Source: Vreelandella zhanjiangensis DSM 21076 (GTDB lineage: Bacteria > Pseudomonadota > Gammaproteobacteria > Pseudomonadales > Halomonadaceae). From it: DNA of 64,000 bases. The position numbers were made by a program, and so were the translations under genes. Below, in pieces: positions 6,394-11,688 of this stretch. Under the pieces are notes generated by a model. The model was not told where the DNA came from and ran no database searches. It saw nothing but the letters and a program-made list of their open reading frames with translations. The stretch is taken from the NCBI RefSeq assembly GCF_000377665.1, contig NZ_KB898648.1, positions 310,001-374,000 on the forward strand, given 5' to 3'. Position 1 is the stretch's first letter. The number at the start of each line of letters is the position of its first letter.

Positions 6394-7560
6394 TTACACG
6401 ATGGCGTGGGGCACAAAGCAGGATGAATCCTTGGTAATCCGCCCTACGTCTTCCCGCACGCCGATACCGCAGGCCCTGTCACCTACCACCCAACTGCCGA
6501 TTAAGGCGTGATGATTACCAAAGCGTGGCATAGGGTGGTACGCCTGACGAATCCAGGGGCTGTCAGTATACGGGCCGTCTACCGCTTCGCGCTGGCCCTC
6601 CGGTGTTAACAGCTCGATATTGCTGCCTTCGCGCGAAAAGAATGGCTTACGCACCCAGCCTGGAGAAAGCGGCTCAGGGTTGCGCTCTTCAAAGTAGGCG
6701 GGCAAGAGATTGGGGTGGCCTTTAAAGTGTTCCCAAAGCAGCGGCAGAATGCCTTTATTGGAGAGAATGGCTTTCCACGGTGGCTCGAACCAGTGAGTGT
6801 TCAACTGGGGGATTTGTTCGCCAAATTCATCGTCGGCGAGCTCCTCCCAGGGGTAGAGTTTAAACAGCGCCTGAATCGGCTGATTATCCAGATCGATGAA
6901 ATAATCACCTCCGGACTGATAGCCGATATCTTCCATAAAAATAAACGGCGCTTTTAATCCCGCTTGAACAGCGACATCCTGCAAATAGTGGACGGTTGCC
7001 CGTTCCTCGATATTATCCTTGATGCATGAGAAGTGAAGCGTTCGGTCCTCAAGGCGGTCGCCAATATGGGCCATGGCGTTGATCAGGCGCTCCTGAATGG
7101 AGTTATATTGATCCGCGTGGCGAGGAATAATGCCCTGTTGAATCGCTTGCTCAAGCCACACCCACTGAAAGAACCCCGCTTCGTAAAGCGAGGTGGGCGT
7201 ATCGTAGTTAAGCTCGAGCAGCTTGGCGTGGCCTTGGCCTGAATAGGCAAAATCCATCCGCCCATAAAGGTGCGGCTGACCGGATACCCATGAGTTGTGG
7301 ATGGTATCCCACATGAACTCCGGCAGGGCCAAGCGTTGCATGAGCGCATTGGAGTGACAAACCCTGTCGACAAGCTCCATGCACATTTCGTGAAGCTCTT
7401 CGGTAGGTGCTTCGATATCCCGCTCTACCTGTTCAAGCGTAAACTGATAGTAAGCGCTTTCCGTCCAGTAAGGCTCGCCTTCAATGGTATGAAAATGAAA
7501 CCCCAGCTCATGAGCCAGGGTTTTCCAGTTGGGGCGTTCGGCCACGTCGATTCTAAGCAT
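6394..7560 (-). CDS. yjfC: Glutathionylspermidine synthase-like ATP-grasp protein YjfC/YgiC
   Basis: 388 aa, matching the C-terminal synthetase half of glutathionylspermidine synthase (the YgiC/YjfC family, which lacks the amidase half). Recognisable parts are the N-terminal ATP-grasp core (YWTESAYYQFT, RMDFAYSG, LLELNYDTPTSLYEAG) and the late segment RKPFFSREGSNIEL, with the basic and acidic residues expected around ATP/Mg. The family ligates an amine or peptide to a carboxylate; the true substrate of stand-alone members is unknown to me. It is the last gene of the yjf operon, 18 nt after yjfM, and converges with the 5434 gene. Confidence 0.88.
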   Translation of the reverse strand: MLRIDVAERPNWKTLAHELGFHFHTIEGEPYWTESAYYQFTLEQVERDIEAPTEELHEMCMELVDRVCHSNALMQRLALPEFMWDTIHNSWVSGQPHLYGRMDFAYSGQGHAKLLELNYDTPTSLYEAGFFQWVWLEQAIQQGIIPRHADQYNSIQERLINAMAHIGDRLEDRTLHFSCIKDNIEERATVHYLQDVAVQAGLKAPFIFMEDIGYQSGGDYFIDLDNQPIQALFKLYPWEELADDEFGEQIPQLNTHWFEPPWKAILSNKGILPLLWEHFKGHPNLLPAYFEERNPEPLSPGWVRKPFFSREGSNIELLTPEGQREAVDGPYTDSPWIRQAYHPMPRFGNHHALIGSWVVGDRACGIGVREDVGRITKDSSCFVPHAIV

Positions 7561-7578
7561 GTAAATATCCGGTGCGGG

Positions 7579-8193
7579 TCACGAGCCCCAACCTCCGCGG
7601 GCAGAGGAGCGTGAGCCGAAGCCGCTGCGCTGGCTGGTTGCCTGACGATTCTGCATCGCCGAGGTGCGCATGGTCTGCTGGCGCTGACTGACGCGCTGGC
7701 TGGCCTGATTGGTAGCGGTATTCCAGTTGCCCTGATTCTGGCGGTTGCGATATACCGGCTCCTGATAGACGCCACGGCTAGCGGCACCACTGCTTGAGCG
7801 CGACATCATGTTGCCGACCATATAGCCCATCATCGCGGGCATGAACCAGCTACCGCCGCTGCTGCCGGTCGCCGCTTGGGCCTGCTCTTCGTTGGGCGCG
7901 ACGCAGGCACCTTCGCCATGCTCTGCTTCACAGGCTTCAAGGGTGTTGAAGCGCGGAACTTCTTTTATCGACGCTTCGTAGGCTTCTTCGCAGGCGCTCT
8001 GGGTATACACATCGGCGGCTACGCACTCATCCACGCTCTGGTAGCTGCGCGGGCTATCGAAGCTGACATCGGTGGTCTGTTCTGGCTGGCCACAGGCGGT
8101 AAGACCGAAGGCACTAGCCCCCATCATCGCCAATGACAGGCGGGCACTGCGCTTGCGACGAGGAAGGTGTGGTGTCTGATCGTGATTTGCCAT
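7579..8193 (-). CDS. yjfM: DUF1190 family lipoprotein (YjfM/YgiB-like)
   Basis: 204 aa from ATG 8193, chosen because AAGGAG precedes it at the right distance; an upstream in-frame extension of 64 codons lacks such support. An n-region rich in Arg/Lys is followed by a hydrophobic stretch and a lipobox LTAC, so it is probably an envelope lipoprotein. The middle contains paired Cys segments (VDECVAAD, SACEEAYE, EACEAEHGEGAC) typical of DUF1190. A Met/Gly-rich hydrophobic patch precedes a Gln/Arg/Ser-rich tail ending RGGWGS. Function is unknown. It lies between yjfL and yjfC, as in E. coli. Confidence 0.85.
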   Translation of the reverse strand: MANHDQTPHLPRRKRSARLSLAMMGASAFGLTACGQPEQTTDVSFDSPRSYQSVDECVAADVYTQSACEEAYEASIKEVPRFNTLEACEAEHGEGACVAPNEEQAQAATGSSGGSWFMPAMMGYMVGNMMSRSSSGAASRGVYQEPVYRNRQNQGNWNTATNQASQRVSQRQQTMRTSAMQNRQATSQRSGFGSRSSARGGWGS

Positions 8194-8204
8194 CTGTAAA
8201 CTCC

Positions 8205-8615
8205 TTACCACGTCATCGAGGCTGCGTTGATCAGGCCTACCGCAATCGATACGCTGCCGACCAGAACGCCGTATGCCATATGGCCTTCGGTAATGTGCAG
8301 TGAAAGACTTTCCCCCTGGTTTTTCAGCACCATTTTCAGCCCAAAGAAGGTGGCTAATTGAACGCCGAACGCGATGATGCCCCACAGGATGAAATCGATG
8401 AAACTAACGGAGTTCGCCATGGCGCTGTAAAGCGGCAGGGTGAAGCCCAGAATCGAACCCGCATAAGCGGTAGCGGCCGCGGCGTTACCTTCACGAATCA
8501 GTGTCCATTCGTGGTGAGGCGTAATCCGGCTATAGCAGTACATGAACGCAACGAGAAGCACCAGCGCGCCGATCAGATAGCCCAAGAAGTGGGGGAGGCC
8601 TTGTAAATACAGCAT
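8205..8615 (-). CDS. yjfL: DUF350 family inner-membrane protein YjfL
   Basis: 136 aa with four predicted membrane helices: about 8-30, 46-66, 70-93 and 110-132. This matches the small DUF350 (YjfL/UPF0719) family. Conserved-looking features include YSRITPHHEW after helix 1 and the Gly/Ala-rich helix 2. The family has no established biochemical role. It is consistently found beside PspA-like and ATP-grasp genes. It is 51 nt after yjfK and 11 nt before yjfM. Confidence 0.88.
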   Translation of the reverse strand: MLYLQGLPHFLGYLIGALVLLVAFMYCYSRITPHHEWTLIREGNAAAATAYAGSILGFTLPLYSAMANSVSFIDFILWGIIAFGVQLATFFGLKMVLKNQGESLSLHITEGHMAYGVLVGSVSIAVGLINAASMTW

Positions 8616-8666
8616 GTGTAGGATCTTCCTTGGTTGAGAATAAATAGTGTAGATGGCTGGCGCCGT

Positions 8667-9386
8667 TTAAATAGCATCAATGTCCACGGAGGTAACATCA
8701 ACCCCCAGATTCTGCACCAGCATGAAGCCGCCTTCGCCGTCATTTTCAGCATTCAGCAGTACGTACTCCATGCGCTCAGAGCCTTCAATCTGGCGCTCGT
8801 AAAGCATGGCGTGATGGGTAACGCTACGCGTCATGACGCTTTCCGTGGTCATTACCTGCTCTTCAAGCAGCACTGGCGGTGACCAAAGGCTCGCTTCATC
8901 GCCCCATACACGCTGATATTGGCATTCGCGCCCGCTTGTGTCAGTAGCTTCAACGGTGATGGACTGCGCACCTAGTTCGCCCGCTTTCTTGTCATCTGCA
9001 TTGATCAACGCATCAAACTCGACGTCCGAAAGATGGGTGACGCGATAAAAATCAAACAGCTTGTATTCAACCACCTGCTGATTTTCGACATTGGCCTGTA
9101 GCCACGTATCGTTATCCAGATAAAAGCGCACCAGGTGAGCGCCCTGGCCCAGGTCTACATGGCCAACGGCCGCCACATGGTGGTAGGGCTCGCTTGACCA
9201 GCCAAACAGGGTGTCCGGAAACGCGCTCAGCTCGGCAAGTGCAATCTTGACACGGCCATCCAGACGCAGCCCTTCGAAATCTTCAGGCGTCATGCCCTGC
9301 GGCAAGCCTGCGCTGAAGGTTGCTGTACTTTCCGCCTGTGCGGCGTCATCTGAAGTGCCAAACAGGCTTTTCAAGGTCTTGAACAT
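8667..9386 (-). CDS. yjfK: DUF2491 family protein YjfK
   Basis: 239 aa, soluble, with no signal peptide or membrane helix. It matches E. coli YjfK (DUF2491): a short N-terminal segment (MFKTLKSLFG), then a beta-rich body with HLVRFYLDNDTWLQ and a conserved-looking LFDFYRVTHLSDVEFDALI. Function is unknown. The ATG overlaps the channel gene stop by one base (TGATG), so the two are probably translationally coupled. Confidence 0.82.
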   Translation of the reverse strand: MFKTLKSLFGTSDDAAQAESTATFSAGLPQGMTPEDFEGLRLDGRVKIALAELSAFPDTLFGWSSEPYHHVAAVGHVDLGQGAHLVRFYLDNDTWLQANVENQQVVEYKLFDFYRVTHLSDVEFDALINADDKKAGELGAQSITVEATDTSGRECQYQRVWGDEASLWSPPVLLEEQVMTTESVMTRSVTHHAMLYERQIEGSERMEYVLLNAENDGEGGFMLVQNLGVDVTSVDIDAI

Positions 9387-10465
9387 CAGGTAGTTCCCCC
9401 CAGAGCAGACTGAAACAGAGCGACGAGGTCACCTTCGCTCAGGCGCTGATCACCCATGTAATAAAGAGTATCGCCCGCCCTGACCGCAAAGTCGGCAGGC
9501 GGATTCAATAGTTGGTGTTCATCGCTTGCCGGGCGCCAGACGCCTAGCAACGTCACGTTATTGTCCGCTTTCGCCCTTGCCATCAAATCGCCGTAGCGCA
9601 CGCTCTGCTCACGGGGGAGCGTGGTGGGCAGGCAGGCCTGGAACTGGGTAGCTCCCTGGTCGATGGCCAGCAGCTCATTGACCACCCGACTGATCCCCGC
9701 GTCGGTGGCCGAGCGCACCAGCATTTCGATAGAGAGCCCTTGGGTGCACTCGATACCCGGCAGCGTACGGCGCAACATGCTGGCAGTCGAAGGATTGTCG
9801 CAGTGCGCCACCATGTGGCAACCCGGCGATTTCTGGTCGTACACCGAAAGCGCGATGGTTGCCACACGCTCATCCACCTTGTCGTAGATAATGATGCGGC
9901 TGGCGCCCTTGATACCCGCCCGGTTCAGCAGTTCGGCATCGGAAAAGCTTTCGCCCTTGACGAACTTGATACTGCCGGGCAATGGGTTATCGATATCGGC
10001 GGCTACGCACAGCACAATATCGTCCGGCAGGTTAGGATCCGCCTGAAGGATACGAATGATATTGGCCGTTGGTTCGCCATGCCAACCGATCACGAGCGTA
10101 TGCCCGGTAAGGTCTGCGTAGTTCGCATTACCCTGCACCAGCGTTCTCCATGTTGAGCTGATATTGGCCGTCGCTTTGCCGATAAACGCAGCAAACAGGA
10201 TGATGCCGCCAGGAATCACCCAAAGCGTGGCTGCCCACTGGCCAATTGGCGTTTGAGGACTGAAATCACCATAGCCTACGGTGGTGGTGGTGGTGACATA
10301 AAAGTACATCCACAGCCGAAAGGAACTGGCCACCACTTCACCGGCAACGGACATGGCAGCCCAGGAGAGCGCCGAATGCCCGATAACCATCAAAAACAGA
10401 AAGGTCCAGCTGACGCTGATGGTGGAGGCTTGAAGCGCCTTTAGAAGACGTACAAAAATAGGCAC
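9386..10465 (-). CDS. Two-helix potassium-type channel with RCK (TrkA-N) domain
   Basis: 359 aa. Helix 1 is at about 17-38. The pore loop TTTTTVGYGDFSP (about 57-69) holds the K+ selectivity filter TVGYGD, and helix 2 is at about 75-95. A cytoplasmic RCK-like NAD-binding domain begins at HTLVIGWHG, and the C-terminus looks like TrkA-C (FAVRAGDTLYYMGD). This is the Kch/MthK architecture. The start is GTG 10465, supported by AAGGAG six bases upstream. It sits inside the yjf operon between yjfJ and yjfK, where E. coli has no channel. Ion selectivity and ligand are unproven. Confidence 0.88.
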   Translation of the reverse strand: MPIFVRLLKALQASTISVSWTFLFLMVIGHSALSWAAMSVAGEVVASSFRLWMYFYVTTTTTVGYGDFSPQTPIGQWAATLWVIPGGIILFAAFIGKATANISSTWRTLVQGNANYADLTGHTLVIGWHGEPTANIIRILQADPNLPDDIVLCVAADIDNPLPGSIKFVKGESFSDAELLNRAGIKGASRIIIYDKVDERVATIALSVYDQKSPGCHMVAHCDNPSTASMLRRTLPGIECTQGLSIEMLVRSATDAGISRVVNELLAIDQGATQFQACLPTTLPREQSVRYGDLMARAKADNNVTLLGVWRPASDEHQLLNPPADFAVRAGDTLYYMGDQRLSEGDLVALFQSALGGTT

Positions 10466-10485
10466 TGCTCGCTCCTTGAGAACAG

Positions 10486-10503
10486 GCCCGCCCTTGGGCG
10501 GGC
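10486..10503. repeat. Intercistronic hairpin between yjfJ and the channel gene
   Basis: GCCCGCCC-TT-GGGCGGGC, a perfect 8-bp GC stem, lies in the 48-nt gap downstream of the yjfJ stop. There is no U-run in the minus-strand direction, so it is more likely an mRNA stability or attenuation element than a full terminator. Confidence 0.6.
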
Positions 10504-10513
10504 GCTATCTTGG

Positions 10514-11209
10514 TTACGCTTGTGGCGTATTCTTCTTGGCTTTCAGGCGGGCCAACACGTCTTCGGCCTTGCGGTCACTTGAGCCAATACCGGCGGCCTT
10601 CAAACGTGCGTCGAGCGATGAACCACTCTCTTCAGCGGCCATCTGGTCGGCGGCCTGCATCTGGGCAGAGTTAAGCTGCTGGCGCTCGCGAATGCGCTCC
10701 AGAGACTCCATGGCACTACCCATGGCGCTGTTCTGGCCCGAGTGGCGTGCCGCCACGGCAGACTGAGCCTTCTGGGCAGATTCAGTCGCCTTCACCACGC
10801 TTACCTGCTGTTTGAGCTGGCGCAGCTGGTTTTCGGTGTTACGAATGGCACCACGCAGGTTCTCGATGCTGGCATCGTACTCGCTGACAATATTACGCTC
10901 GGCGTCGAGTTCTTCCTGCATGGCCACCATGCGCTCGGCGACTTCCACGGCGAGTGCTTCTTCGCCTTTATCCAGGGCGGCTTCAGCGCTCTGCTCAAGC
11001 TCGCTGATCTTGCCTTCCAAGGTGTCGGCTTTATTGCTGTTCAACTGACGCTGGCCCATCAGGCGTGCCAGTTCGGTCTTGGACTGCTTGAGATGATTTT
11101 CGGAATCACGGATTTCCTGATCCAGAATACGCAGAGCCTGTGAATCAACGACCGCCTGGCCGGTTTCATTGGCTTTACCGCGTAAGGCCGTCATGATTTT
11201 ACTTAACAT
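10514..11209 (-). CDS. yjfJ: PspA/IM30 family protein YjfJ
   Basis: 231 aa, almost entirely charged helical coiled coil rich in Gln, Glu, Lys and Ala, with the PspA layout: a short N-terminal amphipathic stretch (MLSKIMTALRGKANE) and then long heptad helices to about 160. The family is related to ESCRT-III and binds and remodels membranes under stress. The tail carries SSLDARLKAAGIG and DVLARLKAKK. Gene order yjfI-yjfJ supports YjfJ rather than canonical PspA; no pspF or pspBC is nearby. Confidence 0.88.
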   Translation of the reverse strand: MLSKIMTALRGKANETGQAVVDSQALRILDQEIRDSENHLKQSKTELARLMGQRQLNSNKADTLEGKISELEQSAEAALDKGEEALAVEVAERMVAMQEELDAERNIVSEYDASIENLRGAIRNTENQLRQLKQQVSVVKATESAQKAQSAVAARHSGQNSAMGSAMESLERIRERQQLNSAQMQAADQMAAEESGSSLDARLKAAGIGSSDRKAEDVLARLKAKKNTPQA

Positions 11210-11232
11210 AAGGGTTGCTCCTGAAAAGCGTA

Positions 11233-11688
11233 TTAAGAAAAGTGTTCCTGAATCAGACCGGCGACTTCCATGGCGGCACTGGCCGTAGCGTGCAGTTCAG
11301 CGCAAATGGACGCCAGTTTTGAGTCGCCAAATAGCTGGCCATAGGCCACGTAGAAATCACGCCCATCAATAGAGACGATGCCGACAGATGCCAGCGGTAG
11401 GGCAAGACCTTGGCGCAGCAGTACTTCGTTGAGTTCGGACTGGTTGCTTACGCTGTCCACCGCGGCGATAGCGGTCATGGCAATCCATTCGTTGTCACTA
11501 CGCGACAGGGTCAGGGTTAGATTGCCGTAATCGTGAAGCTCCCAGATCAGGGTCTGGTTGGCCTCATCCAGGCTGAGGTTGGCATCCGGCCACTCAAGCT
11601 CGCTGGTATCGGGTTGTGCGGTAGCTTCGGTAACAAAACGATAAAGATCGGCGGCAGACAGCGCGCCGGTGTCATTTGAAGTTGTCAA
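11233..11688 (-). CDS. yjfI: DUF2170 family protein YjfI
   Basis: 151 aa from TTG 11688, chosen because AAGGAG lies nine bases upstream. An in-frame ATG at 11760 would add 24 unlike residues and place this ribosome site inside the gene. A small acidic soluble protein resembling YjfI (DUF2170), with WELHDYGNLTLTLS and a hydrophobic LPLASVGIVSIDGRDFYVAYGQLF segment. It is the first gene of the yjf operon and 23 nt from yjfJ. Function is unknown. Confidence 0.78.
   Translation of the reverse strand: MTTSNDTGALSAADLYRFVTEATAQPDTSELEWPDANLSLDEANQTLIWELHDYGNLTLTLSRSDNEWIAMTAIAAVDSVSNQSELNEVLLRQGLALPLASVGIVSIDGRDFYVAYGQLFGDSKLASICAELHATASAAMEVAGLIQEHFS

Follow-up and report, generated by a model that had tools for sequence, protein, structure and literature searches.

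A Vreelandella gene cluster of the polyamine-linked class of PspA operons with an optional MthK-like channel that lacks the primary Ca2+ site of MthK

Among operons pairing a CesT/Tir-like chaperone gene with a PspA-family gene, Ravi et al. (2024; PMC11237479) described a third group that already includes a K+ channel with ligand sensing, together with DUF350, DUF1190, DUF2491 and a glutathionylspermidine-synthetase-like ATP-grasp ligase. In the parts of that paper concerned with these operons, DUF2170 is assigned to the CesT/Tir-like chaperones and DUF4178 appears as the counterpart of DUF2491 in the second group; the section on the third group does not discuss a hairpin, an exchangeable gap or the frequency with which the channel is absent. 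Across the searchable passages of the open-licence literature, a channel within a yjf operon was found only in PMC11237479, and the hairpin and the rhomboid case described below were found nowhere. In Escherichia coli strains evolved under heat, the text bearing on these genes gives yjfIJKL as strongly up-regulated (PMC12492005). The bacABCDEF operon of Pseudomonas aeruginosa likewise begins with a DUF2170 gene followed by a PspA-family gene, but it has six genes, and the passages describing it mention no channel (PMC10948618).

The window, a 64,000-nucleotide stretch of the genome of Vreelandella zhanjiangensis DSM 21076, contains an adjacent DUF2170 and PspA dyad, the ligase, the channel and the DUF350, DUF1190 and DUF2491 genes, as identified with Pfam. 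Because this gene content is identical to that of the third group of Ravi et al. (PMC11237479), the set is not new; the cluster is a member of a published polyamine-linked class of PspA operons. Open reading frames and Pfam matches confirmed the seven minus-strand genes, their order and their outer limits (6394–11688) as an earlier note on this DNA had given them, with one Pfam family above the cut-off for each of the seven. The yjfI-like DUF2170 gene (11233–11688; PF09938, E 1.5e-21) has a TTG start, common to most aligned relatives, with AAGGAG upstream, and is followed by the yjfJ-like PspA_IM30 gene (10514–11209; PF04012, E 2.2e-42) and the channel gene (9386–10465). Then come the yjfK-like DUF2491 gene (8667–9386; PF10679, E 1.7e-30), the yjfL-like DUF350 membrane protein gene (8205–8615; PF03994, E 9.4e-39, the only DUF350 match in the genome), the yjfM-like DUF1190 gene (7579–8193; PF06693, E 3.7e-30), whose product has a lipobox-like LTAC near its N terminus, and the yjfC/ygiC-like ATP-grasp ligase gene (GSP_synth; 6394–7560; PF03738, E 1.6e-148, 495.3 bits). 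The seven genes are not open by chance, because dN/dS against the relative L104 is low for all of them (0.018–0.053).

The parallel that the earlier note had drawn with the E. coli yjf order holds for genes 1, 2 and 4–6, which match yjfI-J-K-L-M in family and order, with best local identities of 32% (I), 33% (J), 30% (K) and 39% (L); the E. coli stretch compared ends inside yjfM, and we take yjfC to be the next gene. E. coli also has a hairpin between yjfJ and yjfK, but there is no gene between these two and no channel gene in the yjf cluster. A sigma54 site has been proposed for bacABCDEF in the text describing that operon (PMC10948618), whereas none was found at the window locus; in a pattern scan upstream of DUF2170, the strict pattern occurred in 0/51 loci and the core pattern in 3/51, the window locus not among them. 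The NCBIfam BacA equivalog model gave 44.1 bits, well under its cut-off of 300, and that assignment was rejected. From the canonical Psp system the cluster has the PspA/IM30-family protein, which scored 22.7 bits with the NCBIfam phage-shock PspA model, far under the cut-off of 242.95.

The yjfJ-like gene is the sole PspA-family match in this genome. Eleven of 18 other genomes of the genus also have a single match, always inside the yjf cluster, and the remaining seven have none. The ligase, likewise the only match of its family in the genome, aligned over residues 1–387 along its full length with E. coli YgiC (7uk8, 432.7 bits) and YjfC (7uk6, 425.5 bits), both of which are reportedly peptide-spermidine ligases. 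The amide-forming ligase of the earlier note can thus be named more specifically, as a putative peptide-spermidine ligase by homology, and its statement that no function is established for the set is only partly true, given these homologues and a class already in print. Genes for AdoMet decarboxylase and for a protein of the spermidine synthase family are present elsewhere in the genome. The DUF2491 protein is predicted to be beta-rich (AF2 mean pLDDT 85.8). No PDB entry matched it at E<=0.001 in Foldseek, the best VIA-align Z was 3.8, and weak structural matches to ligand- and lipid-binding barrels were not worth a claim; a relationship to DUF4178 was also rejected, with a profile comparison probability of 0.1% from a DUF4178 alignment of only 5 rows.

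The channel gene has a GTG start and encodes a protein with an Ion_trans_2 domain (PF07885), the two-helix pore and filter TVGYGD recorded in the earlier note, and a cytosolic RCK region. In the window protein the RCK region scores too low for Pfam (TrkA_N 18.4 bits, cut-off 23.8), but the domain is borne out by TrkA_N matches at E<=0.1 in 42 of 51 aligned channels, the window channel included, and by likeness to the Ca2+-gated K+ channel MthK. MthK was matched in sequence (phmmer E 1.4e-13, and also by profile search) and by the AF2 model (mean pLDDT 90.9; Foldseek E 6.1e-18, TM-score 0.49, about 20% identity); the two proteins share a 2TM pore, TVGYGD, the RCK fold and GW instead of GxG. The positions of D184, E210 and E212, which we take to be the primary Ca2+ site of MthK, are occupied in the window channel by Y194, H221 and D223. 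The E210 position is acidic in none of the 51 aligned channels, again counting the window, and 26 of them have an aspartate where MthK has D184. Judged by its sequence, this is an MthK-like 2TM-RCK protein without the MthK primary Ca2+ site. The earlier note had its stop coincide with the yjfK start, which is loosely right: in TGATG, the final A of the channel stop codon doubles as the first base of the yjfK start.

Between the PspA gene and the channel lies a hairpin on the minus strand (10486–10503, GCCCGCC-CAAG-GGCGGGC) with seven G-C pairs, an RNA fold z of -2.69 and a fraction of 0.01 of 200 shuffles folding as well. Because it has no T run it is not a canonical terminator, and a terminator scan did not list it. 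Strong G-C hairpins followed the PspA gene in 11/33 tested gaps as against 2/76 other gaps (gaps of 25–350 nt), namely in 8/13 gaps before a channel and 3/20 before DUF2491, although rows are not independent and 5 of the 8 channel positives come from one close group. The hairpin was missing or weak in 5/13 channel operons of the survey and in two more among hand-picked gaps. Of nine such further gaps, few shuffles were as good in three (L202, L205, L206), this was not so in five, and one was too short; the L206 hairpin has only 4 G-C pairs and would fail the main survey threshold. Throughout, shuffles keep base composition only, and the P. amygdali hairpin (L204) was judged by eye. Hairpins with a T run follow the PspA gene in Psychrosphaera saromensis and in three Pseudomonas plasmids. 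The single transcript assumed in the earlier note is not supported; a strong hairpin that recurs in relatives parts the PspA gene from the channel. The gap between the PspA and DUF2491 genes is empty, holds the channel or, on Pseudomonas plasmids, holds a rhomboid protease gene. The rhomboid case comprises two related plasmids, with the gene broken in one; these and L214 and L215 are the four plasmid records examined among 43 matching the rhomboid, and at L214 and L215 no yjf gene lies within 4 kb of it.

Whether the channel belongs to this system can be judged from its relatives, the best 80 of at least 336 confirmed ones being surveyed as named loci. The earlier note had allowed that the channel might be confined to this strain; it is not, as relatives adjoin yjf genes in 27 of these 80 loci. 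In the flanks retrieved for the other 53 there is no yjf gene, which is weak evidence for the short contigs L117 and L122, and this is what would be expected if a free-standing RCK K+ channel had landed after the PspA gene and were merely co-expressed, with no common function. In 46 of the 53 channel-alone loci (all except L110–L113, L117, L122 and L165), the genomes were searched further: DUF2491 is absent from 42/46 and DUF1190 from 34/46, so whatever the channel does by itself cannot require the yjf operon. A search for a conserved partner of the channel-alone copies found only synteny among near relatives. The channel tree (rows of at least 300 aa, 5 duplicate loci removed) requires six switches between contexts, at least five of them forced by well-supported branches, although the method was quick and gave long-branch warnings. 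The operon of the close relative G025 (L098), whose PspA is 97% identical, lacks the channel; a candidate channel remnant in its PspA-DUF2491 gap was rejected, as only the hairpin region matched (score 28, where shuffles averaged 18.5 and reached 30). Within the genus, a strong channel match is missing from 22 of 37 genomes, and among the 25 genomes with DUF2491 the channel lies in the operon in seven, elsewhere in eight, and gives no strong match in ten, so that it is not a fixed part of the system. Against mere co-residence stand the 25 loci of the best 80 holding both genes, in alpha- and gammaproteobacteria, in all of which the channel and DUF2491 are direct neighbours in the same order on the same strand, no more than 43 nt apart (starts were chosen by script, and large negative gaps, as at L177, are an artefact of this). 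Nine of these 25 loci have the DUF2170-PspA pair on the other strand, and two lack it, of which one (L180) is a contig end. DUF2491 is also found in all 15 genomes of the genus that match the channel strongly, as against 10/22 of those that do not (p 3.7e-4, uncorrected for kinship); in a draw of 274 spread evenly over classes, the three other genomes with DUF2491 all have the channel alongside (two share one genus), and the one-base overlap points the same way. The first two genes can also be lost without the others: G036 (Halomonas sp. A40-4, L064/L106) has no DUF2170, little of the PspA gene and no PspA match in its genome, while the channel and the K-L-M-C genes are all open, with a channel dN/dS of 0.063 against L065. 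We consider it doubtful that the channel is a passenger.

The operon might instead be mainly an osmotic device of halophiles, in which K+ is released on salt downshift and PspA guards the stretched membrane, but this seems unlikely. Many channel-bearing hosts among the best 80 of at least 336 are marine or halophilic, judging uncounted by their names, and a BCCT-family transporter gene lies near channel-alone copies at two of eight loci of one Vreelandella group (L070 and L072, the latter by Pfam); the other six have no such neighbour. E. coli retains yjfI-J-K-L-M without the channel, and a Rhizobium plasmid bears the same set, channel included, so the earlier remark that the set suits a halophile in particular is not supported. 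This plasmid is one of two viewed among 67 plasmid records matching the channel, the other having no yjf set; three of five DUF2491 plasmid records were viewed.

As a whole, the cluster resembles a pair of units joined together, the membrane component between them being exchangeable, and with middling confidence we propose a two-unit PspA-polyamine operon that would answer membrane damage or turgor change and carry a K+ channel with a ligand other than Ca2+. The first unit would consist of a DUF2170 chaperone or regulator and an ESCRT-III-type membrane protein, the one PspA-like protein of the cell, and would end at the hairpin, which most likely separates it from what follows by processing or attenuation. 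The second would comprise DUF2491, DUF350, the DUF1190 lipoprotein and the ATP-grasp ligase, which most likely forms a bond between a peptide and spermidine. The gap between them would accept an extra membrane protein, in the window a K+ channel that is probably translationally coupled to DUF2491 and whose RCK ring may gate K+ flow in response to some cytosolic ligand, but not to Ca2+ bound at the primary site of MthK. The trigger is most likely inner-membrane damage or turgor change, upon which PspA would cover the membrane and the small-cation load would be adjusted jointly by K+ release and spermidine conjugation. A membrane-stress reading of this kind was also given in the earlier note; it fits the gene families and is already in print in the section on the third group (PMC11237479), while the function is something that we, too, infer. 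A bolder version, which we regard as quite improbable, makes the hairpin-guarded gap a docking place where channel and rhomboid are swapped as outputs of the DUF2491-DUF350-DUF1190-ligase module, with the RCK domain sensing not Ca2+ but something that the module makes, for instance a peptide-spermidine conjugate.

To the published class this locus adds a channel that is optional, often found without yjf genes and without the MthK primary Ca2+ site, a recurrent hairpin and a variable gap. PspA-type membrane protection is widespread, although the partners of PspA outside the classical psp operon have hardly been studied. Because the yjfJ-type gene is the lone PspA match in each PspA-bearing genome examined there, this salt-tolerant genus is well suited to finding out what the cluster does, and it offers natural comparison strains in which the channel is present, absent or elsewhere, and one without PspA that has kept the rest.

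The earlier note had read seven genes in the yjf order on the minus strand at 6394-11688 of the window, and each of them was confirmed by Pfam. In the direction of transcription, 23 nt separate the DUF2170 and PspA genes and 48 nt the PspA and channel genes, the channel and DUF2491 genes overlap by one base (TGATG), and the remaining gaps are 51 nt (DUF2491-DUF350) and, by coordinates, 11 nt (DUF350-DUF1190) and 18 nt (DUF1190-ligase). E. coli K-12 has the same yjfI-J-K-L-M order with no channel among these genes (the stretch compared ends before yjfC). Four families were counted in the window's own genome, and PspA, DUF350, DUF2491 and GSP_synth each gave a single match, inside the operon; AdoMet decarboxylase and spermidine-synthase-family genes are present outside it. 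The ligase aligns along its entire length with the solved E. coli YgiC and YjfC. Peptide-spermidine ligation is the activity reported for YgiC/YjfC by Pederick et al. in 2023, and YgiC reportedly lacks glutathionylspermidine synthase activity according to a table in another paper. The operon is an example of the third group of CesT/Tir-PspA operons, potassium channel included (Ravi et al. 2024, PMC11237479), and because this class is already known, the novelty of the gene set is low. One study describes strong up-regulation of yjfIJKL in heat-adapted E. coli and predicts that it results from the deletion of a single base 80 bp upstream (PMC12492005), and another describes an effect of a DUF2170-PspA operon on biofilm formation in P. 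aeruginosa (PMC10948618).

A strong channel match was found in 15 of the 37 genomes of the genus. In seven of these the channel lies between the PspA and DUF2491 genes (the PspA gene being a remnant in Halomonas sp. A40-4), and in the other eight it lies away from the operon, whose six remaining genes are all present at a separate site. The eight elsewhere-copies and one in-operon copy (L068) form one well-supported tree group. DUF2491, present in 25/37 genomes, occurred in all 15 genomes with the strong channel match versus 10 of the other 22, kinship not being corrected for. Among four genomes of the same order outside the genus that carry DUF2491, the channel was in the operon in two (G051 and G057) and absent from it in two (G043 and G054). 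At the loci L069-L076, from one Vreelandella group, channel relatives (~56% identical) share a chromosomal site outside the operon. Bax1-I and DsrE/DsrH/DsrC-family genes lie nearby, and two of the loci also have a BCCT-family transporter there. One further genome of the genus has a decayed channel copy; the decayed channel of genome G005 (L080 6904-7233) occupies the chromosomal site shared with the elsewhere-copies. In Halomonas sulfidaeris (L165) the channel is split across several frames, possibly by sequencing error.

When 274 genomes were drawn evenly from the class, four proved to have DUF2491, the window's own included, and all three others (two from one genus) have the channel beside DUF2491. 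Among the best 80 named channel relatives of 336, 27 adjoin yjf genes and 53 have none in their flanks. With I, J, K, L, M and C for the DUF2170, PspA, DUF2491, DUF350, DUF1190 and ligase genes and Ch for the channel, the 27 loci comprised IJ-Ch-KLMC (12) and IJ-Ch-KLM (2), both in one direction, Ch-KLMC (2, one at a contig end), Ch-LMC (2), and nine in which the IJ pair is encoded on the other strand (eight of them from alphaproteobacteria, the ninth a Candidatus Thiobius record). When 46 of the 53 channel-alone genomes were tested, DUF2491 was found in 4 and DUF1190 in 12. A tree of 92 channels, built by a quick method and with long-branch warnings, needed six context changes, at least five of them forced by well-supported branches. 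This distribution and these changes therefore indicate that the channel can live alone yet usually pairs with DUF2491 when it joins the operon system.

The operon also appears to divide into two units. In the alphaproteobacterial loci, channel-DUF2491-DUF350-DUF1190 points away from the DUF2170-PspA pair, a divergent arrangement visible in the annotated genes of Rhizobium plasmid pRspBT03f. A natural deletion in Halomonas sp. A40-4 (L064/L106) again separates the same units: DUF2170 is gone and the PspA gene survives only as its end, the channel, DUF2491, DUF350, DUF1190 and ligase genes are all open, and no PspA match was found anywhere in the genome. The PspA remnant lies at L064 5964-6209.

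Genes other than the channel can also occupy the gap behind the PspA gene. Plasmid pQBR103 has a same-direction rhomboid protease gene there (L202 4342-4896), followed by DUF2491, and a Pseudomonas amygdali plasmid (L204) has a broken relative of this gene at the same place; pPma4326F has no annotated gene in the gap. Endozoicomonas elysicola and 'Salinisphaera sp. G21_0' (L208 4799-5428 and L209 4024-4656) each have a LysE-type exporter in the gap, encoded on the opposite strand, which may be incidental.

A strong G-C hairpin followed the PspA gene in 11/33 gaps versus 2/76 other gaps (p 2.5e-5, without kinship correction), namely in 8/13 PspA-channel and 3/20 PspA-DUF2491 gaps, E. coli among the latter. 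The other gaps gave 0/25 (DUF2170-PspA), 0/35 (DUF2491-DUF350), 0/6 (DUF350-DUF1190), 0/2 (channel-DUF2491) and 2/8 (DUF1190-ligase). The hairpin test was negative at L067, L108, L109, L154 and L176 in the main gap scan and at L207, L210 and L212 in a later gap set. The hairpin is retained at the truncated Halomonas sp. A40-4 locus. In three Pseudomonas plasmids and Psychrosphaera saromensis a T run stands behind it, as in an intrinsic terminator; the Psychrosphaera element occupies L206 5268-5353, in a PspA-DUF2491 gap. Since the window hairpin (fold z -2.69) has no T run, read-through or processing is more likely there than full termination.

By sequence and predicted fold, the channel groups with the Ca2+-gated K+ channel MthK, with a whole-chain TM-score of only ~0.5 and ~20% identity. 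Across 51 aligned channels, the window's included, the Rossmann motif is GW(H/N), not GxG (G127 in 51/51, W128 in 48/51, H or N at 129 in 48/51). The residue aligned with MthK D184 is D in 26/51, that aligned with E210 is acidic in 0/51, and that aligned with E212 is D or E in 23/51. Judged from these residues, therefore, neither GxGxxG-type nucleotide binding nor Ca2+ at the first MthK site is likely. D198, E239 and D255 are invariant in this alignment and H217 is kept in 50/51. The channel dN/dS was 0.053-0.071 in four of five pairs, operon pairs and one channel-alone pair alike, synonymous sites being saturated in the fifth pair and close to saturation in some of the rest.

From the protein families and the cited papers, we infer a system in which PspA would cover the membrane, the channel would release K+ and the ligase would conjugate spermidine. 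The useful additions to this known class are an optional channel paired with DUF2491, a hairpin after the PspA gene, an exchangeable gap and the probable loss of the Ca2+ site.
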